Assembly: GCF_014205885.1 (NCBI RefSeq)
Contig: NZ_JACHFB010000002.1
Location: 283,965-347,964, forward strand
Length of the DNA stretch: 64,000 nt
Reading direction: 5' to 3'
Origin: Borreliella californiensis
GTDB taxonomy: Bacteria > Spirochaetota > Spirochaetia > Borreliales > Borreliaceae
Part shown: positions 7,008 through 30,118 of the stretch, piece by piece
How the letters are laid out: every line of letters begins with the position of its first letter
Position numbering within the stretch: position 1 is the first letter of the stretch
The notes under the pieces: generated by a model
What the model was told of the DNA's origin: nothing
What the model saw: only the letters and a program-made list of their open reading frames with translations
The model's database searches: none
Program-made: the position numbers and the translations under genes

Positions 7008-7110
7008 ACTTAGAATTGTATTATATTATAATAATTAATCAAATGGATTGAAAATATTAATTAAGTTTTATAACTTTAAAGTTTTGATTTTTATTATAAG
7101 GGGGCTTCAA

Positions 7111-9329
<2,219 letters not shown>

Positions 9330-27068: not shown

Positions 27069-28724
27069 ATGGAAAATCAAAAAGATTTACAAGAAAATTA
27101 TTTGAAAGTACTTGAAAAAGTAGAACTTGGAAGTCGTGTTTCTGGGACGGTTGTTAACATTATGAAGGATTATATTCTAGTAGATATTGGTTATAAATCG
27201 GAAGGCTTTATCAAGATTGAAGAATTTGAAAATGTTCCCAAAATTGGTGATAAACTTGAAGCAATTGTTGTAAGAATTGGTGGAGAATTGGGCCTTATTT
27301 TAAGTGTTGAAAAGCTTGATTCTTTAAATTTTAAAGATAAAGTGTATGAATATATTCAAAATAAAAAAATAATTAAAGGCAAAGTGTTGGTTGAACTTCC
27401 AAATGGCTATAAGATTCAAATTAATGAAAATGTTTCTGGCTTTATGCCTTTTTATTTAAGCTCTAAATCTAAGGATGAGAAATTAAAGAGAGGGACTGTT
27501 GTTGAATTTTATATCCTTGAAGCAAGCGAAACGGATGGTTTGAGACTTATTCTTGATAGGCGCACTTTAGAAAAAGAAAGAGATCTTGCTAAGAGAATAG
27601 AGCTAGTAAGTTATTACAACGAAGAAGATGTTGTTGATGGTGTTGTTGAGCGTATTACAGAATATGGTGCTATTGTAAAAATTAAAAATTTTGTTACAGG
27701 AATTTTGCATAAAAGAAATATTGCCTTTAATCAAGTTGAAAATATTGAAGATTTTGTTAGAGTTGGTGATAAGTTAAAGTTGAAAATTATTAAGATAAGC
27801 CCACAAACAGGCAAGATGGAATTGTCTCTTAAGGCTTTAAAAGCAAATCCTTGGGATTCTGTAGATGTTAAATATAAAATTGATAGCATTGTAAAAGGGA
27901 AAGTTGTAAAAATTTTGCCCTTTGGAGCTGTTATTGAGCTTGACAGCGAATTATCAGGATTTTTGCATATAAGTAATTTTTCTTGGATAAGAGTAATAAA
28001 AAGCCCTCAAGAATTAATAAAACTTGGCCAGATTGTAGAAGTTAAGATTTTAGAGATAGATAAAGAAAATCAAAAAATATCGCTAGGTATTAAACAAATT
28101 AATGAAAATCCTTGGGAGAGATTGACTGAGAAATATCCTATTGGAAGAGTTGTTCAAGGAGTTGTTACTAATATTACAAAAGCGGGCGCTTTTGTAAATA
28201 TTGAAGAAGGTATAGATGCTTATGTTAGTAAGTTTGATATTTCTTGGCTTGAGGAGATTGATCCTGAAGAATATTTCAAGATAGGTGATTTAATTAATGG
28301 TAAAGTGCTTGAGGTTGACAGGCGCAAAAGAAATGTTAGATTAGGAATTAAACAGCTAGAAGAGAGTCCTTGGGAAGATTTTTCTAAAAGCTATAAAAAA
28401 GGCGATGCTATTGAGGTTGAGATTGTAGAGAAAAAATCAAAAGGCTTTCAAGTAAGAGTTTATAATAAAATAATGGGATTTATTAGTAAAATTCAACTAG
28501 GGGATACAAAAGAATCTAGTTTAGAAACTTTCGAAAAATTAAATGTTGGAGACAAGCTTAAAGTGGTAATAACAAGTATTGATTCTAAGGATAAATCAGT
28601 ACTGCTTTCTTATAGGGAGTATGAAAATCAAAGATCAAGAGAAGAGATTTCTTCTTATTTATTTAAGGGTAATGATGAGGAATCGTATAAGCCATTTGAA
28701 AATTTGCTAAAGAGGGATAAATGA
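27069..28724 (+). CDS. rpsA: 30S ribosomal protein S1
   Basis: S1 helps bind mRNA to the 30S subunit. The 551 residues contain six S1 RNA-binding repeats; clear ones begin near GSRVSGTVVNIMKDYILVDI, DVVDGVVERITEYGAIVKI, SIVKGKVVKILPFGAVIEL, GRVVQGVVTNITKAGAFVNI and DAIEVEIVEKKSKGFQVRV. ATG at 27069 is better placed relative to AGAGGTGA than the GTG at 27063. The next gene overlaps the stop as ATGA. Confidence 0.94.
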   Translation: MENQKDLQENYLKVLEKVELGSRVSGTVVNIMKDYILVDIGYKSEGFIKIEEFENVPKIGDKLEAIVVRIGGELGLILSVEKLDSLNFKDKVYEYIQNKKIIKGKVLVELPNGYKIQINENVSGFMPFYLSSKSKDEKLKRGTVVEFYILEASETDGLRLILDRRTLEKERDLAKRIELVSYYNEEDVVDGVVERITEYGAIVKIKNFVTGILHKRNIAFNQVENIEDFVRVGDKLKLKIIKISPQTGKMELSLKALKANPWDSVDVKYKIDSIVKGKVVKILPFGAVIELDSELSGFLHISNFSWIRVIKSPQELIKLGQIVEVKILEIDKENQKISLGIKQINENPWERLTEKYPIGRVVQGVVTNITKAGAFVNIEEGIDAYVSKFDISWLEEIDPEEYFKIGDLINGKVLEVDRRKRNVRLGIKQLEESPWEDFSKSYKKGDAIEVEIVEKKSKGFQVRVYNKIMGFISKIQLGDTKESSLETFEKLNVGDKLKVVITSIDSKDKSVLLSYREYENQRSREEISSYLFKGNDEESYKPFENLLKRDK

Positions 28725-29335
28725 TGGCTAAAAATAAACTTTTATTTTTCTTTATTGCTATTATTTTTGTGTTTGTATCTGTTATTGTTGTTTTTTATAA
28801 TTTTTTAAGTAAAGATTATGTGAAAAGTGGTGGAGAAATAGTAGAAAATCTTGAAAAAGATTTAAATGATTATTTAAAAGAAAATGATGTCAAAGAGAGA
28901 GAAAGAATATTTCTTAGGATAAGGGAACTTATTTCAAAGGAAAAAGAAATTTCATCTTATTTTATTTCAAGGTTTTATTTGGCCAGAGCTGCTTATTTCC
29001 AAAGCCAAGCACAGTATGATGAAGCTATTAAAAATTTAGATATTGTCATTAAAGCAAAGGGTATTGAAAGTGACATTGCTTTTCTTAATAAAGCTGTAGT
29101 TTATGAAAAAATGGGATTAAAAGAAGATGCTTTGTTAGTTTATGAAGATCTTATCAATAGTACTAGTTTGGGCTTTTTAAAGGTAAGAGCCCTTTTGAGT
29201 AAGGCAATATTGATTGAGGAAAAAGATAAGGATCTTGCTGTGAAAGTATATGAAGAGATTGTTAAGTTTCCATATGAAAATAATTTATATATAAACATAG
29301 CAAATAATAAAATTTTAGAACTTAAACAAAATTAA
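28721..29335 (+). CDS. Membrane-anchored TPR protein
   Basis: A 204-residue protein with an N-terminal membrane anchor (about 6-28) and TPR units such as QYDEAIKNLDIVIKAKGIES and GLKEDALLVYEDLINSTS. It resembles the TPR_21/YfgM type layout (anchor plus TPRs) but I do not claim that family. The ATG overlaps the rpsA stop; a second ATG at 28724 is also usable. Function unknown; probably an envelope scaffold. Confidence 0.75.
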   Translation: MMAKNKLLFFFIAIIFVFVSVIVVFYNFLSKDYVKSGGEIVENLEKDLNDYLKENDVKERERIFLRIRELISKEKEISSYFISRFYLARAAYFQSQAQYDEAIKNLDIVIKAKGIESDIAFLNKAVVYEKMGLKEDALLVYEDLINSTSLGFLKVRALLSKAILIEEKDKDLAVKVYEEIVKFPYENNLYINIANNKILELKQN

Positions 29336-29365
29336 TAATTTGTATATTTTGGGGGAGGTTTTATA

Positions 29366-30118
29366 ATTTTTTTTATTTTTTATTTTATATTTTGTATGGG
29401 GTTTTTTGGATGTGGTCTTGACAATATTTTAATACTTCCTTCACCAGAAAAGGTTGACAGTCGAATTTCAAGAGATTCTTTGGCTTTTTTTTTACCAGCA
29501 GGCTATTTTTCCAATCAAGCAGCTGATAAATTAAGAGGTTTTGATATATATTACAAGTTTTATCCAGAAGGTGCTAATTATCACATAAGTAGTTTCCAAA
29601 AAAGCGTAGAAAAAGATTTTGAAGCCTTAAAGGGTGTTTTTGACAATGTTAGTGAATTTAATAATAGAGGGTTTTATAAGATAAATTTGAGTTCTACTAT
29701 TTATTCAGGTAAACCTGTTTTTAAATTAAATAAAGAATGGGTAGATAGCAAATTGCCTTTATATTTTGAAATAAATTTTGGAGAATTAAGAAAGGATGTT
29801 CCTGGTGAAGCTATTATTATTGTGAGAAATGGAAGTACTGCTTCATCTGATATTCTTGAGAAGAAAAACATATATAGGTCCTATATTGACAAAGGAGAAT
29901 ATGTGGGTTTTTCAAAATCTATTAAAAAGTTCAATTTTTCAGACAAAGAGAAAAGGCCAATTGATCTAAAACATATAAATGAGGATTTTTTTACAAAAGA
30001 TATTGCCCCCAAGTATAATTTGGCAATTTTTGTTATGGGTGTGGGCAGTATTGTTGATGATGCTTATAGCGTTCTTATTAATCTTGGGGATTTGTCAGGA
30101 TTTAGTTTATCTAATTAG
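29366..30118 (+). CDS. Putative lipoprotein of unknown function; probable AUU or AUA start
   Basis: The first ATG in frame (29396) gives MGFFGCGLDN, too short for a signal, and lies 37 bases from any binding site. A perfect GGGGGAGG (29351-29358) instead points to ATA 29363 or ATT 29366. No ATG, GTG or TTG lies in frame between the upstream stop (29336) and 29396. Starting at 29366 gives (M)FFIFYFIFCMGFFGC, a lipoprotein-like signal, although without the usual basic residues. The mature part (about 235 residues) has no domain I recognise. It probably belongs to the same transcript as the preceding TPR gene. Confidence 0.7.
   Translation: MFFIFYFIFCMGFFGCGLDNILILPSPEKVDSRISRDSLAFFLPAGYFSNQAADKLRGFDIYYKFYPEGANYHISSFQKSVEKDFEALKGVFDNVSEFNNRGFYKINLSSTIYSGKPVFKLNKEWVDSKLPLYFEINFGELRKDVPGEAIIIVRNGSTASSDILEKKNIYRSYIDKGEYVGFSKSIKKFNFSDKEKRPIDLKHINEDFFTKDIAPKYNLAIFVMGVGSIVDDAYSVLINLGDLSGFSLSN

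Follow-up and report, generated by a model that had tools for sequence, protein, structure and literature searches.

The Borreliella ortholog of BB_0125 appears to be translated from a non-canonical start codon that is selected by a strong Shine-Dalgarno (SD) sequence, most likely the AUA at position 29363, and we assign this reading a probability of about 0.86. The gene lies within the 64,000-nucleotide stretch of Borreliella californiensis DNA analysed here (the window), which comes from a 435-kb Borreliella contig; the nearest sampled relative is G023 (96% protein identity). A first-pass annotation of positions 29339-29410 had proposed an AUU or AUA start behind a strong SD together with a lipoprotein-type signal, and this proposal fits an alignment of 18 Borreliella species, in which AUA is the conserved codon. 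Homologue searches and comparison of loci indicate orthology with BB_0125, which is predicted to encode a lipoprotein and is uncharacterised.

We infer from this alignment that initiation takes place at AUA or AUU. In the proposed mechanism, fMet-tRNA would be set on one of these codons, and the SD duplex would offset the poor codon-anticodon match, so that low, IF3-sensitive expression would be expected; this expectation of yield derives from the start codon only. At its N-terminus the product would carry a hydrophobic export signal that ends in FFG-C, and it is probably lipidated.

Layout and conservation of the BB_0125 start region

The gene order around BB_0125 (names per B31) is one that we take to be cmk, rpsA, BB_0126, BB_0125, BB_0124, rpsB and tsf. 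Between the in-frame TAA stop and the ATG at 29396, the window sequence contains no in-frame ATG, GTG or TTG, and no ATG in any frame lies between BB_0126 and 29396. The first-pass annotation had placed the stop, the SD, the two candidate codons and this ATG exactly to the base, and had correctly noted that no canonical start lies between. Its spacings from the SD (4 nt to ATA 29363 and 7 nt to ATT 29366) also hold, and both are common among genes with an SD and an ATG.

Table 1. Positions of the features discussed, in the window and, where marked, on the G022 chromosome
Feature	Positions	Strand	Basis or remark
SD AAGGGGG of besC	7098..7104	+	Sequence, cross-genome comparison
besC, BB_0142 ortholog, outer membrane efflux protein (PF02321), start ATT 7111	7111..8370	+	ATT in 29/30 genomes
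Upstream gene, BB_0126 ortholog	28721..29335	+	ORF list; stop ends 27 nt 5' of AUA
In-frame TAA stop 5' of BB_0125 ortholog	29336..29338	+	Sequence, comparison of loci
Shine-Dalgarno GGGGGAGG	29351..29358	+	GGAG core invariant in 18/18 Borreliella
TTTTATA, spacer plus AUA codon	29359..29365	+	7 adjoining columns invariant in 18/18 Borreliella
AUA, likeliest start codon	29363..29365	+	18/18 species; inference
AUU, alternative start codon	29366..29368	+	15/18 species; AUA, AAU, GUU in the remaining three
Hydrophobic signal segment without basic n-region	29363..29410	+	Translation, alignment
First in-frame ATG, without SD	29396..29398	+	ATG 6, GTG 1, TTG 1 of 18 species
Lipobox Cys codon	29411..29413	+	Kept in 36/36 Borreliaceae
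Proposed complete CDS, BB_0125 ortholog	29363..30118	+	ORF list, homologue search, locus comparison
lepA	G022 84044-85867	-	
nanE (PF04131)	G022 682640-683377	+	
Memo-like gene (PF01875)	G022 358377-359198	+	
Secreted ORF near 815 kb	G022 814871-815515	-	
clpC-like gene	G022 884231-886483	-	
infC	G022 189302-189862	-	

Within a single genome, an SD followed by ATT or ATA is weak evidence because the pattern is frequent in AT-rich DNA. For example, GGAGG with ATT or ATA 4-9 nt further on, and with no canonical start, occurs at 8 of the 37 GGAGG sites in the window and at 144 of 529 on the G022 chromosome. Judged from the alignment of start regions, it is conservation across 18 Borreliella genomes that lifts the BB_0125 pattern above chance. 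No species deviates at positions -9 to -6 (GGAG) or -4 to +2 (TTTTATA), and between these two blocks there is a single deviation in one species. Indels 5' of the SD shift the frame among the Borreliella loci, whereas none occurs between the SD and the lipobox Cys in any of the 18 genomes. The SD is normally spaced and is kept together with the proposed start codon, and no canonical start fits the conserved protein: ATG, GTG and TTG are absent 12-30 codons 5' of the lipobox Cys in 15 species, and the other three carry only a stray in-frame TTG at or just before the SD.

The local RNA fold around the SD is weak (z -1.6), and a promoter scan of the locus returned sites no more numerous than in shuffled sequences. 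Another match to the start region, elsewhere in the genome, was set aside as a chance T-rich stretch within another gene.

Translation confirms the earlier claim that a start at ATT or ATA yields a hydrophobic segment ending FFGC, and that a start at 29396 leaves none. The predicted protein reads [M](I)FFIFYFIFCMGFFG-C from 29363 or 29366, and MGFFG alone precedes the Cys from 29396. This Cys would be residue 17 (AUA start) or 16 (AUU start), within the 15-35 expected for SPase II substrates, and a hydrophobic segment followed by a lipobox Cys, the hallmark used for spirochaete lipoproteins, is present. The n-region of the window protein contains no Lys or Arg, unlike that of most relapsing-fever orthologs. 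This point weakens the lipoprotein assignment most, and we therefore describe the protein as lipoprotein-like rather than as a certain SPase II substrate.

The protein was detected with an intact ORF in all 36 Borreliaceae genomes, and no relative of it was found in Pfam, NCBIfam or PDB. Its AlphaFold model is unreliable (pLDDT 43.6) and too poor for a structure search. Matches in other spirochaetes are weak, distant and N-terminal only; they mostly cover the first 60-80 positions of the profile, signal region included, as would fit a family of exported proteins.

Most orthologs in Borrelia sensu stricto have ATG or GTG and a signal peptide at the aligned place, with weak SDs, and many of the relapsing-fever signal peptides carry Lys or Arg (MKK, MKR). 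A canonical start is missing in three relapsing-fever genomes too. G003 and G004 have ATT CAA GGA GGA at the place where G009 has ATG CAA and G006 has GTG CAA, and the G001 ortholog has an out-of-frame ATG only. When aligned by eye, the Borreliella SD coincides with the codons for Lys in the signal peptide of the relapsing-fever orthologs (ATGAAAAAGGTTTATAG versus GGGGGAGGTTTTATAAT). Occupation of this place by the SD may be the reason why both the ATG and the basic n-region are missing in Borreliella.

Candidate initiation sites for BB_0125

The alignment favours AUA 29363 over AUU 29366 by roughly two to one, because the former codon is ATA in all 18 species and the latter is ATT in 15. An AUU start, with AUA serving only as spacer, is a variant inside the main explanation rather than a competitor to it, and we consider it the less likely of the two. 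Its 7-nt spacing resembles that of besC and lepA, where AUU lies at 6-7 nt, and is the most frequent one among genes with an SD and an ATG on one related chromosome (40/229). However, a spacing of 4 nt is as common (39/229), and thus spacing does not discriminate between the two codons. The ATT is replaced by AAT in G029, GTT in G024 and ATA in G021, whereas the preceding ATA is invariant.

Initiation at ATG 29396, which is the earliest canonical codon in the window genome and would give a cytoplasmic protein without a signal, is very improbable. No SD precedes this codon, the position is ATG in only six of the 18 species (GTG in one, TTG in one, and CTA, TTA or CTG in ten), and the protein would begin five codons before a Cys that is kept in 36/36 genomes. 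An origin farther 5', by read-through or frameshifting from BB_0126 or from a TTG before the SD, is slightly less probable still. The BB_0126 and BB_0125 frames do coincide in the window (stops 29333 and 29336), but read-through is excluded because species-specific indels before the SD alter how the two frames relate, and G031 has a stop codon immediately 5' of GGA GGT TTT ATA. The in-frame TTG at or before the SD, which would speak for such an origin, is confined to three of the 18 species.

Long T-tracts 3' of the SD bring to mind a decayed gene, or a start created by transcript slippage, with no true initiation site. This too is very improbable, given that no ATG in any frame is available from BB_0126 to 29396 and that all 36 genomes retain an intact, conserved ORF. 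The first-pass annotation had named lack of expression as a ground for rejecting its proposal. Published data do not bear this out: a BB_0125 transcript is listed in RNA-seq, and BB0125 is listed among the proteins from outer-membrane complexes (PMC4939628). Both entries also speak against a decayed gene.

Probable AUU and AUA starts elsewhere in Borreliaceae

A companion gene in the window, besC, encodes a TolC-like efflux channel and is a stronger candidate for an AUU start than BB_0125. Its predicted start reads ATT AAA AAA after AAGGGGG. Across 30 genomes, drawn from both genera, the codon is ATT in 29 and ATC in one, and a stop codon lies directly 5' of the ATT in four species. The window species also has an internal ATG, which is not conserved.

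A set of 771 conserved genes was compared among two Borreliella chromosomes and a relapsing-fever one, and 628 of these genes have an ordinary SD and a canonical start. Among SD-supported positions in the remaining genes, ATT and ATA account for 11 of 43 against 13.9% expected (p ~0.03), a modest excess. Looser scans gave too many false positions, and these counts come from a stricter one. Single genes give a clearer picture than this overall excess.

Among these genes, lepA has ATT behind strong SDs in all three chromosomes, and the clpC-like gene has ATT AAY ATA after GGAG in all three, with its earliest canonical codon nine codons later in G022. For nanE, the Borreliella ATT lies 10 nt after GGAGG and aligns with the ATG of the relapsing-fever ortholog in G007. 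The Memo-like gene has ATA behind AAGGA or AAGGGG in two Borreliella chromosomes, and in both a canonical start is absent near the N-terminus. The secreted ORF near 815 kb has ATA AAA AAA AGA TTA after AAAAGG in two Borreliella, and its relapsing-fever ortholog has GTG. Four G022 genes lacking a start (near 532473, 422315, 75014 and 668526) were rejected as AUU candidates since they look frameshifted or interrupted. Their reading frames are broken relative to G024 and G007.

These comparisons suggest that AUU and AUA starts behind SDs are a real and recurrent feature in Borreliaceae. The earlier suggestion that two envelope genes share such starts holds for besC and for the recurrence, but not for the link to the envelope, because lepA, nanE, the Memo-like gene and pncA are not envelope genes.

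If these assignments are correct, gene calling restricted to ATG, GTG and TTG gives BB_0125 a wrong N-terminus and hides its export signal. The protein could therefore drop off lipoprotein lists and be wrongly expressed as a recombinant protein. The N-terminus of besC would likewise be wrong in species where an internal ATG would be called. The AUA/AUU family would also offer natural, phylogenetically deep test cases for the upkeep of such initiation outside infC. A more speculative idea, and one we think unlikely, is that these starts behind strong SDs form a maintained regulatory device in Borreliaceae. It would act on a small set, comprising besC, BB_0125, lepA, nanE, pncA, the Memo-like gene and perhaps clpC and the 815-kb secreted ORF, whose output would depend on IF3 level. 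On this idea, start-codon fidelity would tune the efflux channel, the lipoprotein and NAD salvage jointly.

Comparison with known non-canonical starts

In E. coli, infC and pcnB start with AUU, their expression is limited by the poor codon, and IF3 discriminates against AUU. Whereas infC begins with AUU or AUA in many bacteria, Borrelia infC has an ATG, located directly after a stop codon, and autoregulation as in E. coli is not apparent in it. Classical IF3 autoregulation may therefore be absent in Borrelia.

The S. aureus genes infC (AUA), cvfC1 (AUU) and ccpN (AUA) carry their starts behind extended SDs, and reporters yield ~10-30% of AUG (PMC13009471). Their conserved non-canonical starts with extended SDs match what is proposed for BB_0125. 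Unlike BB_0125, these Firmicute genes encode regulators and IF3, and their attenuation, supported by ribosome profiling and reporters (PMC13009471), has a partly known function.

Closer parallels come from B. burgdorferi. An AUU start has been inferred for lepA (PMC1780047), which resembles BB_0125 in having a strong SD and no canonical start, with ATT in Borreliella and a relapsing-fever genome. However, lepA encodes a cytosolic translation GTPase and has its AUU in both genera; for BB_0125, by contrast, ATG or GTG is found in most relapsing-fever orthologs. For pncA (bbe22), an AUU start has been proven experimentally (PMC13398362). As would be the case for BB_0125, a rare start in the same bacterial family was missed by annotation, leaving a truncated database protein without its N-terminus (PMC13398362), which in pncA is essential. 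In contrast to BB_0125, pncA is a plasmid gene for a soluble enzyme; BB_0125 has AUA as its better candidate and would lose an export signal. Considered together with these systems, BB_0125 fits the pattern of a strong SD directing AUU or AUA initiation with reduced yield, and very probably adds to the already known class of bacterial genes with starts other than AUG, GUG and UUG.
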